This document shows, in pieces, positions 30,846-41,649 of a stretch of DNA of 64,000 nt. Every line of letters starts with the position of its first letter. Position 1 is the stretch's first letter. Under the pieces are notes generated by a model, which was not told the DNA's origin, made no database searches, and saw nothing but the letters and a program-made list of their open reading frames with translations. The translations under genes and the position numbers were made by a program. This stretch comes from Cycloclasticus sp. (GTDB taxonomy: Bacteria > Pseudomonadota > Gammaproteobacteria > Methylococcales > Cycloclasticaceae): positions 186,001-250,000 of the forward strand of contig PADC01000002.1 of the NCBI GenBank assembly GCA_002700385.1. Reading direction: 5' to 3'.

Positions 30846-31139
30846 ATGGAGAATAAATCTAAACAATGGCATGCCTTACACGCCGAAACAGCCAAAATTG
30901 AGTGGAAGGATTTAGAGCGTTTTTTTGCACGCGGTCATTTATTGCGTGTATCTAGCGATTTAGATCTCGTCGATACGGCTGTTGAAATGGCAAACGATAA
31001 TAAGGCGGTCATTGAGCAATGGGTCGCTGAAAATCGTTTGTCGGGTGTCTCGAATGAAGAGGCCCAACGTTGGTCACAAGGGGAAAGCACCCTTTGGTCT
31101 GTGGTGGTACTCCCCTGGATTTTAGTCCAGCAACGATAA
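30846..31139 (+). CDS. DUF2288 family protein
   Basis: A 97-residue acidic soluble protein matching the DUF2288 pattern: an early KIEWKDLERFFARGHLLRV, the LDLVDTAVEMANDN helix, and the C-terminal VVVLPWILVQ. The function is unknown in the family as far as I know. It diverges from the YeeE/YedE pair and stands alone. Confidence 0.8.
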   Translation: MENKSKQWHALHAETAKIEWKDLERFFARGHLLRVSSDLDLVDTAVEMANDNKAVIEQWVAENRLSGVSNEEAQRWSQGESTLWSVVVLPWILVQQR

Positions 31140-31215: not shown

Positions 31216-32637
31216 CTAATTAAAGCGAGCAGCCCAAGCCTTTTCCAACCGCTTTTCAGAAATGGGTTGTCGCGTCTTAATCTGTTGCGCGAATAACGAA
31301 ATTCTAAATTCTTCAAGCAGCCATCGGAATGAGTCATCTTCGGGGGCTGTATCAGTTGATGCGATAAACTGCCAAAACTTTTTTTCAAAAAATTGCGCCT
31401 GTTTTGCTTTCACGGCATCTTTTTCCAACTGCCCTGCTGCTTTTTCTAACCTGATTAAAATGGCTTTCAAATACCGCGTATAAAACTCAAGTTGATCGGC
31501 CGGCACATGACGGATAAACCCTTCAAAACACAGGCAAGAAAGTTGCTGAGAGATGTCGGTATAGAGTGCTTTTTCATTGCGCCATTTATTTAAAGCCTCC
31601 ATGACTCGTTGATGTTGTGCCAGCAGCGATGAAATCGTTTCAGACAATTCATAGCCCTTTGCATACAATGAAACATCATTTTTTTGAACCGCTTGATCAA
31701 ACTTCTTTTCCGTTCGAATATCTTGATCTGCAAAATAACTTGCGATCAACTGATGCGCCAGATCATCAAAAATATCTTCGCCCACGCTTCGTTGGCAATG
31801 GGGGTGTGGGTTCAAATGCTGATAACTGAACGCTTGTGATGTGGTAATCGCCGATTGTCGGCTCAATTTCTTTAATTCTTTAGCAAATTTCAAACGAAAT
31901 AGTCGTATCAAACCGTCTTTATGCGTTTTTTGTGCCTCTTCTGCCGAATCCATTAACCTGAGGCCAACACTGGTTTTCTCATCCACTAACGCAGGAAACC
32001 CTTTTAGTTCCTGGCCTTGATGCTGGATTGTCTGCTGTTCGGGAATCTCATCAAACTGCCACTTTTTTGAGCCGGTTGATGACAAGGCATCACTCAAAGC
32101 CGTTTGAAATTGTGCGCCAGCCTTTTCAGCATATTGACGCTTAAGGGCATTAAAGTCCTTTGAGACGGCTAAGACATTTGATTTATCTCTTAAAATACAA
32201 AAGCTCATACTCAAATGAGGCGGTAACTTCTCTAACTCAAAGTCAGACGCCCTCAGGTTTGACCCAGTCAGCTTATTTAGAAAGCCAGCCAACTTTTCCA
32301 ACAGTCGGCCACTCGAATATTCCATGCCGTCGATACATGCCTCAACATAATTGGGCACAGGAACAAATTGCTTGCGTAAATTCTTCGGCAGGCCTTTGAT
32401 CAAAGCCTGCAATTTCTCTGCATACAAACCAGGTACTAACCATTCAAAGCCCTCTTCAGTGAGTTGATTTAATTGCGCCAAGGGAATCTCGGCTGTAACA
32501 CCATCGTCTTGATGACCGGGTTCAAAACGATAATTGAGGTTGATTGGCACGCCGTTAATCAAACGTACATCAGGAAATTTCTGCGCATCTACCGTCGACT
32601 CCTCTTTTGATGACACATCCTCGGTAGTTAATTCCAA
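31216..32637 (-). CDS. hrpA: HrpA C-terminal part (DUF3418), separated by an in-frame amber codon
   Basis: This 473-residue frame is the C-terminal DUF3418 region of the RNA helicase HrpA: LNYRFEPGHQDDGVTAEIPL, GFEWLVPGLYAEK and NYVEACIDG are recognisable. It is in the same frame as the helicase half upstream, parted by one TAG and nine sense codons. The first possible start is a TTG at 32637 without a ribosome site, so independent translation looks poor. It is most likely the tail of a broken gene, unless the stop is read through. Confidence 0.8.
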   Translation of the reverse strand: MELTTEDVSSKEESTVDAQKFPDVRLINGVPINLNYRFEPGHQDDGVTAEIPLAQLNQLTEEGFEWLVPGLYAEKLQALIKGLPKNLRKQFVPVPNYVEACIDGMEYSSGRLLEKLAGFLNKLTGSNLRASDFELEKLPPHLSMSFCILRDKSNVLAVSKDFNALKRQYAEKAGAQFQTALSDALSSTGSKKWQFDEIPEQQTIQHQGQELKGFPALVDEKTSVGLRLMDSAEEAQKTHKDGLIRLFRLKFAKELKKLSRQSAITTSQAFSYQHLNPHPHCQRSVGEDIFDDLAHQLIASYFADQDIRTEKKFDQAVQKNDVSLYAKGYELSETISSLLAQHQRVMEALNKWRNEKALYTDISQQLSCLCFEGFIRHVPADQLEFYTRYLKAILIRLEKAAGQLEKDAVKAKQAQFFEKKFWQFIASTDTAPEDDSFRWLLEEFRISLFAQQIKTRQPISEKRLEKAWAARFN

Positions 32638-32664
32638 GGACGTTTGGTTCTTATCATTTTTTAT

Positions 32665-32667
32665 CTA
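32665..32667 (-). other. In-frame TAG interrupting hrpA
   Basis: The codon lies after the OB-fold region and before DUF3418. Reading on in the same frame gives nine sense codons and then the second half, for about 1286 codons in total, close to the roughly 1300 residues of E. coli HrpA. By my recollection of that protein the stop falls at one of two adjacent Trp, so a single G-to-A change (TGG to TAG) would explain it. Confidence 0.8.
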
Positions 32668-35076
32668 TTTATTGAGCAGCGCTAAACTCGTGATATTGTC
32701 GGGTAATTTATCATCATAAAATTCAAATAAGGCTTGCTCATCCACCAACAAATCAACACGCCGGCCTTTTTGCTGCTCATATTCAATGCCTTCTAACAAT
32801 TTTTCATTTTTTCTAAAAAAAGCCGCATGACACACCATCTCACGATCAACTAAACCTCGGCGTATAAACATTTCACGTGCCTGCGCGGGTTCTGTTCTTG
32901 CCATTGGTACAGCTCGACCTTTACTCACCGTTAAACCAAAGAGCAGTTGTTGCTCGTAGAACATGCCTTGTGCTGATTTTTTTGACCAATGGGGCTCGTA
33001 ATAATGCCGCTTTATCAGATGAGCTGCTGCTTTTTCAATCCATTCCGGTTTAATGCTGGCCATAGTTCGAGCATAAACCCGCGTCGTTTCAACCTGCTCG
33101 GCAGCCATGACCCATTTAGGTTGCTTTTTAAATAAAGCAGACGAAGGGTGAAGGTAGAATTTTAAATTTCTCGCACCTAAATATTCCGCTTTGTCGTGCT
33201 TAAAACCAATGCGCGTTACCAAGCCTGTCAAAAGCGCTTGATGAATCGCATCGTCATTTGCTTCGGTGGAATTAATGGTTAATGATGCGTTTTTGCTAAC
33301 CAAATCTAACAGCTGCCGACGAATGTCCTCCCAATCTTTAACCCGCATATATGCCAAAAAATTTTCATGGCAATATTTCCGGAACTGATGATTAGATAAC
33401 GCTTTTTTTTGCTTCTGAATCTCTCGCCATAAATTTATAAACGATAAAAAGTCTGATGTTTCATTTTGGTACGCCTTGTGTTTTTCATCGGCATATTTTG
33501 CCTTGTCACTGGGCCGTTCTCTTGGGTCTTGAATCGACAAAGCCGACACAATCGTTAAGACTTCATCTAAACAACAAAGTGGCTCTGCGGCCAGTAACAT
33601 ACGCCCAAACTGTGGATCCAGTGGAAAATGAATTAATCGTTTTCCAATCTGCGTAAGCTTCTCGTTCTTATCTAACGCACCCAACTCATGCAAACTGCGG
33701 ACACCGCTTCGTATCATTTTATCGGCGGGTGGCTCTATAAATGGAAAATGGCTTATTTCAGCCAACCGCAATGATTTCATTTGCAAAATCACTGAGGCTA
33801 AATTGGTTCGTAAAATTTCTGGCTCAGTAAATTCAGCACGTTGATTAAAATCCGCTTCGCTAAACAAACGAATACAAACCCCTGGCGCTTCTCGACCACA
33901 ACGGCCACTGCGTTGATTGGCGCTGGCTTGGGATATCGGTTCTATGGGTAATTGTTGGATCTTGCTTCGTTGACTAAAACGACTGATTCTTGCCAAACCC
34001 GTATCGATAACACATCGAATGCCCGGCACCGTCAGCGATGTTTCAGCCACATTTGTCGCCAACACAATACGAGATTTCTTATGCGTTTTAAAAATGTTTG
34101 ATTGTTCTTTTGCGCTAAGCCGCGAATACAACGGCAAAATATCATAGTTCTCAGGGTGTTGCTTCCTAAGTGCCTGTGTGGCTTCGCGTATTTCACGTTC
34201 GCCGCTTAAAAACACCAAAATGTCGCCGAGTTTCTCCCGATGTAATTCATCGACCGCCGCCACAATCGCTTCGGTTCTATTTTGTTCGTTCGTTTCAAGA
34301 CCTGCCTCAATGGGTCGATATCGCATTTCAACAGGATATGTTCGCCCCGATACATTAATGATCGGAGCGTTATTAAAATGTTTAGAGAAACGTTCAGGGT
34401 CTATCGTTGCTGAAGTGACAATAAGCTTCAGATCTGGTCGCTTGGGGAGCAACCATTTCATATAACCCAAGAGAAAATCAATATTTAAGCTACGCTCATG
34501 CGCCTCATCTAAAATCAGCGTGTCGTATCGACTTAAAAAGGGATCGGATTTAATTTCTGCCAACAAAATACCATCCGTCATTAATTTAATGAGTGTTTGG
34601 TCTTTCTCCTTTCCCTGGAACCGAATTTTATAGCCTACCGCTTGCCCCACTTCAACCTTCAACTCATCGGCAATACGTTGCGCAACGCTAACAGCCGCTA
34701 ACCGACGCGGTTGCGTATGACCAATTTGGCCCTTAAGCCCGCGCCCTAACGCTAAGCAAATTTTAGGTAACTGTGTGGTCTTGCCAGAACCCGTTTCACC
34801 ACACAGGATAATGACTTGATGCTTTTTAATGAGCTCGGCGATCTCATCCCTTTTTTCACTGATCGGTAACGTTGGAAAATCAATGCTGGGGCAACATAAA
34901 CGGCGCTGATCAACCGCCTCACACGACTGTTTAACCTGACGTAACAAGTCATTTTTTTGTTGTAAGTTTTGACTCGATTGAAGTTTCTTTAGCTGCCTGC
35001 GGAATCGGTGCTGATCCTTACTTAAACTATCATTAATTAACGAACGAATATCGTTAATAGTTGAAATGTCGGGCAT
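32668..35076 (-). CDS. hrpA: ATP-dependent RNA helicase HrpA, helicase part (C-terminus cut by amber codon)
   Basis: An 803-residue DEAH-box helicase. It has Walker A GETGSGKTTQLP, the DEAHERS box, SAT motif VTSATID, the QRSGRCGREAPG motif VI, then the HA2/winged-helix and OB domains. It ends at the TAG at 32665 (three bases before this feature), after the OB fold. E. coli HrpA rescues ribosomes stalled in collisions. The helicase core is complete, so some activity may remain without DUF3418. Confidence 0.88.
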
Positions 35077-35872: not shown

Positions 35873-35963
35873 ACAAAAAAGCCCCAGCTCCAAAAAGAGC
35901 TGAGGCCTTGTTGTACATGGTGCCCAGAGACGGATTCGAACCATCGACACGAGGATTTTCAGT
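35873..35963 (-). repeat. attL: 91-bp direct repeat with 3' half of tRNA-Phe
   Basis: This copy matches 41529-41619 over 91 bases with two differences, both in the terminator stem. It contains the last 46 bases of tRNA-Phe including CCA (35918-35963) and the tRNA terminator (35875-35906), and the identity stops inside the anticodon arm. It is the remnant of the original chromosomal tRNA end, displaced by integration. Confidence 0.92.
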
Positions 35964-36113: not shown

Positions 36114-36122
36114 GGATTGAAT

Positions 36123-37334
36123 ATGGCTAAGAAAATAATCAATTTCACACAGGCTAGAATTCGTGACTTACCACTTCCAGATAAAGGACGAGATGAATAC
36201 TACGACAAAGAAAAGCCTAAGCTTATGTGCCGTGTTAGTAGCTCAGGACACAAAGCTTTTTATGTGGTCAAGTGGGCAAATGGAAAGACCCAACGTGTAA
36301 CGATAGGTTCGGCTGACGAGGTAACCGTCCATTATGCAAGAAAGCAAACAGATACTATTTTGACGTCATTAAGCTCAGGTATTGATCTAACAGCTCAGAA
36401 AAAGAAAGAGCAATTAGGCAAAACACCTTTAGGTAACGTATTAGAGCTATACCTTGCTGACCGCCAACTAAAACCGCTCACAATTAAAGATTATCGTTAC
36501 AAATTAAAACTGGGGTTTGGCGATTGGCTTAAGAAGCCGATTAATAGCATTAGTGAAAGCATGGTATTAGCTAGGCATAAAAAAATAAGCAAAACAGGTA
36601 AAACGACCGCAAACACAACGATGCGAGTTTTACGCCTAACCCTTAATTATGCTAACGCGGTAGGCATGATAGACAATAACCCAACAAAAATACTAAGCAA
36701 AGCTCGCTTATGGCATAAGAATGAACGAAGGGATCGAGTAATACCTAGCGATAAATTAAAAGAATGGCATGATGCCGTAACCGCCTTGAACAATGAAAAA
36801 GCTAAAGTGTACTTCCTAATGATTTTATACATGGGACTACGAAGCAAAGAAGCATTAACGCTCGAATGGGAGCATATAAACCTAAAGCATAAAAACATTA
36901 CCGTTTACGATACAAAAAATGGCACTGACCACAAGTTAGCAATTCCAACACCGCTTTTGCCTTATATAAAAAACCTTTACAGCATTACAGGGGAAAGCAA
37001 ATGGGCATTCAGCCAAAAACCTAAAGGCAAAAATGAACATGACAAACCAATGGTAGTGCCTACAAAGCCCATAAAATCCATCACTAAAGCTTGTGGTGTT
37101 GAGTTTAGTTCACACGATTGCAGACGTACTTTTGCAACAATAGCCGAAGCGGTAAACCTTCCATTAACAATGATTAAGCGATTAATGAACCACGTTACAA
37201 CTAACGACGTAACAGGCGGCTATATTGTGACAGAGGAAGAAACATTAAAAGAAGCCATTAATAAAATAGCCGCTTACATACAGGCCAAAGTCTCAACTAA
37301 AAGCAACGTTATACAACTAAGGGCAAAAAAATGA
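36123..37334 (+). CDS. int: Tyrosine recombinase/integrase (P4-like)
   Basis: A 403-residue tyrosine integrase with an N-terminal DUF4102-like arm-binding domain (MCRVSSSGHKAFYVVKW), a SAM-like core-binding domain near 110-200 and the catalytic domain. Active residues visible are Arg240 (GLRSKEA), His331 and Arg334 (HDCRR), a later His (MNHV) and the nucleophile Tyr367 (GGYI). I chose the ATG at 36123 over the in-frame TTG at 36117. The gene is next to attL and should recombine in the tRNA-Phe anticodon region. Confidence 0.93.
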   Translation: MAKKIINFTQARIRDLPLPDKGRDEYYDKEKPKLMCRVSSSGHKAFYVVKWANGKTQRVTIGSADEVTVHYARKQTDTILTSLSSGIDLTAQKKKEQLGKTPLGNVLELYLADRQLKPLTIKDYRYKLKLGFGDWLKKPINSISESMVLARHKKISKTGKTTANTTMRVLRLTLNYANAVGMIDNNPTKILSKARLWHKNERRDRVIPSDKLKEWHDAVTALNNEKAKVYFLMILYMGLRSKEALTLEWEHINLKHKNITVYDTKNGTDHKLAIPTPLLPYIKNLYSITGESKWAFSQKPKGKNEHDKPMVVPTKPIKSITKACGVEFSSHDCRRTFATIAEAVNLPLTMIKRLMNHVTTNDVTGGYIVTEEETLKEAINKIAAYIQAKVSTKSNVIQLRAKK

Positions 37335-38786: not shown

Positions 38787-41048
38787 ATGACTCTAACACC
38801 CAATAAAAACAGCAACCTAAACCATGCTCTAAAATACGCCTCAATAGGCTGGCAAGTATTCCCGCTTCACTATATAAACGCGGGAAAATGCAGTTGTGGC
38901 AAACAATGCAAATCACCCGGCAAGCACCCTATTTTGGGTGGTGGATTTAAAGCCGCAACGCTTAGGAAAGATATTATTAAAAAGTGGTGGAAGCAACACC
39001 CTAACGCCAATATAGGCGTAAGAACAGGCAAGGAAAGCGGAATTTTTGTTTTAGATATTGACCCTAAAAACGATGGTGAAGCCTCTTTTGATAAAATCCA
39101 AGAGGTGTACGGAAAAGTACCCGATGATGTTTTTGCCGTAACCGGATCAGGTGGGCGTCATTACATTTTTAAACACCCGGGCGATATTGGCCGAAGTACA
39201 ACTAACTTATGGCCGGGTATCGACACCCGAGGCGATGGCGGCTATATCGTTGTAGCACCATCTAACCATATAAGTGGTAAAGAGTATTTTTGGGATGCTG
39301 AGGCAGACCCGTTAAACGGCGCACACCCTAAAGCCGCACCCGATTGGTTGATTAAAAAACTAGGCCAAGGGAAAAACCTGGCAAAGCCACCCGAAAACAT
39401 CATTTTATTACCCGTTGATGAAGTTAAGCGCATTCGCCACGCTATTGCTTATATACCAACCGATGACCGCGACACGTGGTTACAAGTTGGTATGGCTTTG
39501 CATTCGACCGAATCAGGAGATCAAGCGTATGGCCTTTGGAATGAATGGGCGGGACAATCAGATAAATTTGATCTAGCAGACCAACGGCGCGTTTGGGATT
39601 CATTCAAGCCCGGCGGCGTGACATTAGGCAGCTTATTTGCGTTAGCTAAAAATAATGGATGGATTCCACCTACACAAAGCAACACGAATGAGCCACCTAT
39701 TGAGGCTTATATAACAGACCAAACCGCAAACAATCATTCACCTGCACTCACTGAGGTGGATAGCGAATTATTAAACCCGCCACCTGAGCTTGACCCAATA
39801 GCACTGCATGGCATTTTAAAAGAGGCTTGTGAGGTATCAACCCGTTTTAGTGAAGCGTCAAAGGTAGCCGTAGCCGCAAATATTCTTTCCACTTTTAGCG
39901 CAATCGTAGGTCGTACTGCTTACCAGCATATTGGCGATGGTATTTGTCATGCGCGGCCTTACTTTCTTTTGACAGGAAAAACAGGCAAGGCGCGAAAAGG
40001 CACCTCAGAATATACGCCTAAACGACTATTTGATGCAGTCGAAACCATGCTAGGCGATGACTACACGCCCGCAAAGCGTCATGAAGGCGGGTTAAGCACA
40101 GGCGAAGGACTAGGCTGGACAATTCGAGACGATACCTTAGACGAAGATGGCGAAGTGACAGAGGCAGGCGTAAAAGATAAGCGGCTGTATATCTCAGAAG
40201 CAGAATTTGCCGGGACGATGGCGGCTGCATCACGTGAAAAGAACAACCTAAGTGCAACCATTAGAACCGCATGGGATGGTAAAACCATCAGCCCATTAGT
40301 TAAAAATGCTAAGTGGTGTACGACTAACCCCCATATTGTCATTACCGGGCATATCACCTCAGCAGAGCTACTCGACCGCATGAGCGATGTAGACGCACAA
40401 TCAGGTTTTATGAATCGCTTTGTTATCTTGCACATTGTTAGGCCAAAGTTAGTACCGTTACCGAAGCGCACCCCAGATGCAGACGTGCAGCGCATAGCGG
40501 CGCATTTTGCAGAAGCGGTAATATTCGCAAGGGGTAACGATGAACAAGCAAAAAATGGGCTAGAGGTGAAGCTATCACCTGAGGCCATTAAATATTGGTG
40601 TGTTCGTTATAAAGCATTAACCAAAGAAGAAAACGGCCTTGCTGGAGTGTTATTAGTACGAACAGAAGTATATTGCAGAATGTTTGCAATGATATTCGCT
40701 CTACTCGACAAATCAGCAACGATTGAAGTCGCTCACATTAAAGCCGCCTTAGGATGGATTAAATATTGGCGTGACTCAGTGCGGTATATATTCCAAACAT
40801 TAGCGGCTAAAGCTGAGGCCAGCAAAATGAACGAGACAGCTAAAAGCGTTTATGAGTTCATTAGCTCAAACCCTAAATGCACTCGAACAGAATTAACCAG
40901 CCATTTTAAGAACAAGCTCAATAGTTCAGAAATAACTCAAGGGCTTAATTACTTAATGAATGCAGCACCACCACTAATAAAGCAGGAGATGAAACCAAGA
41001 GCGGATGGCAAACCGGGTAAAGGCACCATGATCTTTTGGAAGCCATAA
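38787..41048 (+). CDS. Primase-polymerase with PriCT and DUF3987 helicase-like domains
   Basis: A 753-residue replication protein. Residues about 10-190 form an archaeo-eukaryotic primase (Prim-Pol) domain with a Cys-rich segment (Cys34, Cys36, Cys41), catalytic LDIDP (Asp90, Asp92) and GGRHYIF (His125). Residues about 205-290 fit PriCT_2 (RDTWLQVGMALHST). From about 320 the DUF3987 part has a P-loop-like LLTGKTGKARKGTS and SEAEFAGTMA. It should start replication of the excised element, probably at the repeats just downstream. The 5' end abuts the small ORF. Confidence 0.9.
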   Translation: MTLTPNKNSNLNHALKYASIGWQVFPLHYINAGKCSCGKQCKSPGKHPILGGGFKAATLRKDIIKKWWKQHPNANIGVRTGKESGIFVLDIDPKNDGEASFDKIQEVYGKVPDDVFAVTGSGGRHYIFKHPGDIGRSTTNLWPGIDTRGDGGYIVVAPSNHISGKEYFWDAEADPLNGAHPKAAPDWLIKKLGQGKNLAKPPENIILLPVDEVKRIRHAIAYIPTDDRDTWLQVGMALHSTESGDQAYGLWNEWAGQSDKFDLADQRRVWDSFKPGGVTLGSLFALAKNNGWIPPTQSNTNEPPIEAYITDQTANNHSPALTEVDSELLNPPPELDPIALHGILKEACEVSTRFSEASKVAVAANILSTFSAIVGRTAYQHIGDGICHARPYFLLTGKTGKARKGTSEYTPKRLFDAVETMLGDDYTPAKRHEGGLSTGEGLGWTIRDDTLDEDGEVTEAGVKDKRLYISEAEFAGTMAAASREKNNLSATIRTAWDGKTISPLVKNAKWCTTNPHIVITGHITSAELLDRMSDVDAQSGFMNRFVILHIVRPKLVPLPKRTPDADVQRIAAHFAEAVIFARGNDEQAKNGLEVKLSPEAIKYWCVRYKALTKEENGLAGVLLVRTEVYCRMFAMIFALLDKSATIEVAHIKAALGWIKYWRDSVRYIFQTLAAKAEASKMNETAKSVYEFISSNPKCTRTELTSHFKNKLNSSEITQGLNYLMNAAPPLIKQEMKPRADGKPGKGTMIFWKP

Positions 41049-41528: not shown

Positions 41529-41619
41529 ACAAAAAAGCCCCAACTCCAAAAAGAGCCGAGGCCTTGTTGTACATGGTGCCCAGAGACGGATTCGAACCAT
41601 CGACACGAGGATTTTCAGT
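41529..41619 (-). repeat. attR: 91-bp direct repeat restoring the tRNA-Phe 3' half
   Basis: This copy carries the 3' half of the intact tRNA-Phe and its terminator. It differs from attL at two bases in the terminator stem, each keeping the pairing by wobble. The element therefore brought its own tRNA end and rebuilt a working gene. Confidence 0.92.
41531..41562 (-). terminator. Intrinsic terminator of tRNA-Phe
   Basis: On the minus strand a ten-pair stem (arms 41553-41562 and 41537-41546, with T-G wobbles) with a six-base loop is followed by six T's. The old chromosomal copy is at 35875-35906. Confidence 0.85.
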
Positions 41620-41649
41620 CCACTGCTCTACCGACTGAGCTATCTGGGC
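41574..41649 (-). tRNA. pheT: tRNA-Phe (GAA)
   Basis: A 76-base tRNA with encoded CCA, acceptor stem GCCCAGA/TCTGGGC, D arm AGCTCAGTCGGTAGAGC and anticodon loop CTGAAAATC reading GAA. It is the insertion site of the element: bases from 41620 to 41649 are chromosomal and the rest is shared with the attR repeat. Confidence 0.97.

Follow-up and report, generated by a model that had tools for sequence, protein, structure and literature searches.

The window, our term for the whole 64,000-nucleotide stretch of Cycloclasticus sp. DNA analyzed here, contains on its minus strand a frame of 1286 codons followed by a final TAG stop (31216-31218) that matches the RNA helicase HrpA and carries one internal amber codon (31216..35076). 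Cycloclasticus is a marine oil-degrading bacterium, and the window is part of contig G000:C8 of a draft genome (G000) of 2,516,899 bases in 13 contigs.

Structure of the interrupted hrpA frame

The frame opens with an ATG at 35076 and proceeds through 803 sense codons to a premature TAG at 32665-32667, which is codon 804 of the 1286. The N-terminal piece, including this stop, spans 32665..35076 on the minus strand. Nine sense codons (ATA AAA AAT GAT AAG AAC CAA ACG TCC) separate the TAG from the first possible start, a TTG at 32637, beyond which the frame is open to the final TAG; altogether, the C-terminal remainder (31216..32664, minus strand) comprises 482 sense codons, open and undamaged. 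When the read-through protein was searched against its own genome, a single locus was returned with one TAG inside as the sole interruption. A preliminary description of this DNA had placed both halves in one frame with no frameshift, separated by only the TAG and nine sense codons, and had put their total length at that of a normal HrpA. Direct reading of the minus strand bears out the first two points, and the third is upheld by the NCBIfam family TIGR01967 (HrpA), which matched 5-1282 of 1284 across the break.

The TIGR01967 match is in register on both sides of the stop, with the N-terminal piece covering model positions 5-799 and the C-terminal piece, read from the TTG, covering 816-1282. 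Both the read-through product (1588.5 bits) and the N-terminal piece alone (1233.5 bits) exceed the curated equivalog cut-off of 722.75 bits, and the C-terminal piece scores below it (336.5 bits). Pfam domains on the product are DEAD (80-226), Helicase_C (275-395), HA2_N (460-486), HA2_C (487-545), OB_NTP_bind (611-686) and DUF3418 (700-1282). The N-terminal piece holds the first five of these and, because DUF3418 begins at residue 700, also about 104 residues of that domain. The clean cut between helicase core and DUF3418 proposed in the preliminary description is therefore not what we find: the stop sits inside DUF3418, and it is through this domain that the frame fails to run uninterrupted.

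The closest described system is the HrpA of E. coli, a DEAH/RHA RNA helicase of family TIGR01967, with which the window gene shares a full-length match across the break, the same domains and a Trp at the stop site. Residue 804 of the query aligned with Trp816 of PDB chain 9ggr_A2, in agreement with the preliminary description. In contrast to the E. coli gene, the window gene is interrupted at codon 804 and its product would be without most of DUF3418. Matches to solved pieces of E. coli HrpA end at query residue 744 (6zwx, 8po6) or 767 (6zww, 7akp), and the full-length protein has also been solved (9gft, 9ggr). The extent of the solved pieces makes an 803-residue core plausibly stable here; such a core may be both stable and active, and the 803-residue product may still work.

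Origin and age of the amber codon

HrpA matches were found in 57 of 61 genomes searched, own genome included. We aligned 30 loci, namely the window gene and, from the 56 other matching genomes, the 29 with the best scores, the remaining 27 genomes being left out of the alignment. At the site of codon 804 all 29 aligned relatives (12 congeneric, the other 17 from the same order) carry TGG, encoding Trp, and TAG occurs only in G000. A single G-to-A change, which is C-to-T at plus-strand base 32666, suffices to turn TGG into TAG, and the site combines a sense codon in relatives with a one-step change, as in a recent nonsense pseudogene. A stop inside the match was found in two of the 61 genomes, G000 and G030; in G030 it falls on residue 1284 of 1285, where the match comes to its end, and corresponds to the normal gene end. 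In a wider search TIGR01967 matched in 289 of 301 genomes of the order, and among the matches listed from these 301 genomes an internal stop (TAA) was present only in G299.

Among named records, two uncultured Cycloclasticus assemblies come closest, at 81% identity. No further strain of the species turned up in the genome set, which contains one genome per species, or in a pattern scan of viral contigs and a megablast against plasmids, both of which came back empty. Elsewhere in the order, in a different genus, hrpA gives two matches that lie in different frames (G025:C52:26319-30259, with open frames of 400 and 1082 aa), possibly another broken copy or an assembly fault. Two genomes of the same genus contain a frame of 837 to 842 aa with about 35% identity to HrpA residues 68-499 (G001:C55:7610-8899 and G003:C198:646-1932), which resembles HrpB in length; in the window's genome the HrpA query gave no second match of this type.

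Amino-acid constraint was compared on the two sides of the stop. Most comparisons give a dS that is above 1 or undefined, a sign that synonymous sites are saturated between the species, and our conclusions are therefore drawn from amino-acid counts. Among columns invariant in the 29 other sequences, the window gene has changed 1 of 263 in the N-terminal part and none of 60 in the C-terminal part, and the 12 intact same-genus controls have 0-4 and 0-2 changes, respectively. Relaxed selection on the 3' half is thus not seen in these counts. The C-terminal dN separating the window gene from its four nearest relatives is 0.144-0.155, and within that group of four 0.138-0.149, apart from one closer pair (0.056). 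In the N-terminal part the window gene has a higher dN (0.116-0.128) than the four relatives have among themselves (0.057-0.094), as expected if it is the outlier of the five in this tree-free comparison. We also simulated neutral change of the C-terminal part with no constraint (2000 runs). The fraction of runs in which it stayed as intact as observed fell from 35% at 0.005 substitutions per site to 12% at 0.01 and 1.65% at 0.02, and at 0.05 none of the 2000 runs left it so. Taken with the intact C-terminal part, the simulation leaves three possibilities, namely a very young stop, an erroneous base or a 3' half still in use; if the 3' remainder is unconstrained, the first of these applies.

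A wrong base is the main rival explanation. In that case the real gene would be intact and the amber in the draft genome would stem from a fault of consensus or assembly, or from a minority allele; both the otherwise undamaged gene and the 13-contig state of the assembly are compatible with this. Against it, the change is a substitution and not an indel in a homopolymer, and single-base substitution errors are uncommon in consensus sequence. We regard such an error as unlikely, though a real contender, and infer that the base at 32666 is real.

Loss of hrpA within the genus

Among 17 other genomes of the same genus, 12 have a long stop-free HrpA match, four have none (G002, G006, G015 and G016) and one, G003, has a partial match of 35% identity over 69-499. 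Completeness is only 73-80% for G002, G006 and G003, and reaches 99% for G015 and 98% for G016. In G016 (L130) yceI (688-1275) is immediately followed by an ORF of 98 aa and then by a TauE gene. The window holds a relative of this small ORF at 69% identity (30846-31136), just past the 3' end of hrpA, and the yceI and TauE families were assigned by Pfam on the window's copies. Between yceI and the small ORF with the TauE gene, hrpA is cleanly missing (L130, 1-2618), and tblastn found no trace of it in the 6-kb G016 stretch. In G015, yceI is followed by other genes, mobile-looking by eye, and hrpA is not there. The clean deletion in G016, a member of the same genus, means that loss of the gene is tolerated, and hrpA is dispensable in the genus. 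G016 resembles the window genome in that the gene is non-functional or absent and the organism lives; the two differ in that G016 lacks the whole gene cleanly, whereas the window genome has a single stop.

PMC13159725 (citing Campbell et al.) describes E. coli HrpA as a helicase rescuing stalled ribosomes, and PMC11633108 (citing the same work) presents it as a ribosome splitter. Changes to hrpA are tolerated in E. coli as well: a Keio hrpA deletion mutant has been tested, with an inconclusive colistin phenotype (PMC9687012), and a truncated HrpA has arisen in evolved E. coli (PMC12758526). Our literature search returned no paper combining HrpA, helicase and DUF3418, and among titles on Cycloclasticus and pseudogenes none was about hrpA.

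Judging from sequence comparison, the amber is probably (a chance of roughly three in four) a recent nonsense substitution in a dispensable gene for a ribosome-rescue helicase, private among the genomes compared. A recent G-to-A transition would have turned an invariant Trp codon into an amber. Translation would stop at this codon, so that the product would be no more than a helicase core of 803 residues lacking most of the C-terminal region, and the 3' half would probably be untranslated to any useful extent; we infer that it is silent. The mutation would be tolerated because hrpA can be lost in the genus, and it may mark incipient gene loss or a polymorphism among strains. If real, this natural truncation, beside the whole-gene deletion of a sister species, adds to the evidence that HrpA is dispensable in Cycloclasticus, and provides a natural allele with the core kept and most of the C-terminal region dropped. 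It would not change views of translation or gene structure.

It is also conceivable that the truncation is beneficial, with most of the C-terminal region removed by selection and the core kept. All core domains lie upstream of the stop, and there is a laboratory parallel: in PMC12758526, a truncated HrpA (c.2684delA) is reported among growth-restored E. coli mutants with mutated serS. The two cases share a truncation of the C-terminal region with the core retained, and differ in that the E. coli allele, from a serS mutant background, has lost one base near codon 895, while ours is a nonsense codon at position 804 in a natural genome. Nothing ties the Cycloclasticus organism to a serS background, and with a single strain the spread of the allele is not visible. 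We consider selected truncation very unlikely.

Upstream of hrpA, a 91-nt direct repeat (35873-35963 and 41529-41619, 98%) includes the 3' part of tRNA-Phe (41574-41649). The 5.6-kb stretch that it bounds contains a phage-type integrase gene (36117-37334) and a Prim-Pol/PriCT_2 gene (38787-41048), and is a small element integrated at tRNA-Phe, adjoining yceI and hrpA.

Readthrough, suppression and restart

Perfect preservation of the 3' half, which we read as the mark of a young nonsense substitution, would also fit readthrough or reinitiation. The machinery for ordinary termination at TAG is in place: release factor RF1 is present and intact (555.5 bits against a cut-off of 423.25). The RF00005 search gave 32 tRNAs above cut-off in the genome, which were named by ARAGORN; one of them is Trp-CCA and none has a CTA anticodon. 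Three weaker matches (17.5 to 23.6 bits, below cut-off) are no tRNA according to ARAGORN. The list does not include tRNA-Ile-GAT, Ala-TGC or Arg-ACG, which are expected in such a genome, and is to that extent incomplete, perhaps owing to assembly gaps at the rRNA operon or to a limit of the search's first pass. Independently of this list, a pattern combining a CTA anticodon loop with a T-loop, based on one consensus and applied to the assembled contigs, had 28 matches against 17 in a backwards-read control; none was a tRNA with a CTA anticodon, the sole match inside a tRNA being in Arg-TCT. The search for an amber suppressor tRNA advised in the preliminary description thus came back empty, in the incomplete RF00005/ARAGORN list as in the pattern search.

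Stop usage was sampled over 417,674 bases, counting stop-to-stop frames of at least 250 codons on both strands, which are not proven genes. The 230 long frames end in TAA (136), TGA (60) or TAG (34), and hrpA itself ends in TAG. A change of genetic code is ruled out by this ordinary use of TAG as a terminator together with the intact RF1. Of the options listed in the preliminary description, recent loss and strain polymorphism gain from the TGG of the sister genomes, and suppression is disfavored by the RF1, tRNA and stop-usage results; nothing supports it.

Amber suppression or natural readthrough, for instance at a low level by near-cognate tRNAs, would yield the 803-residue core and a little full-length HrpA in a ratio set by termination efficiency, making the stop a regulatory switch and HrpA a helicase for ribosome rescue whose form is a readout of translation, and the open, undamaged frame past the stop would suit this; given the evidence above and the absence of the stop from all 29 aligned relatives, we hold it to be highly improbable. 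The amber looks like an ordinary mutation, not a new mode of gene reading.

Restart was assessed by anti-Shine-Dalgarno pairing. Five ATG, GTG or TTG codons lie within 66 codons past the stop, with a best pairing of -3.3 kcal/mol and a value of -1.5 for the first TTG. At -3.3, the native start of hrpA pairs no better than the best internal candidate, so restart remains compatible with this test.

The same sample of long frames contained 35 pairs of long adjacent frames in one frame across a single stop. In three of these the stop is TAG, namely hrpA, L075 at 11284 and L076 at 10519. The presence of one family on both sides of the stop is shown for hrpA only, and on visual inspection the other 34 pairs looked like separate genes or chance frames.
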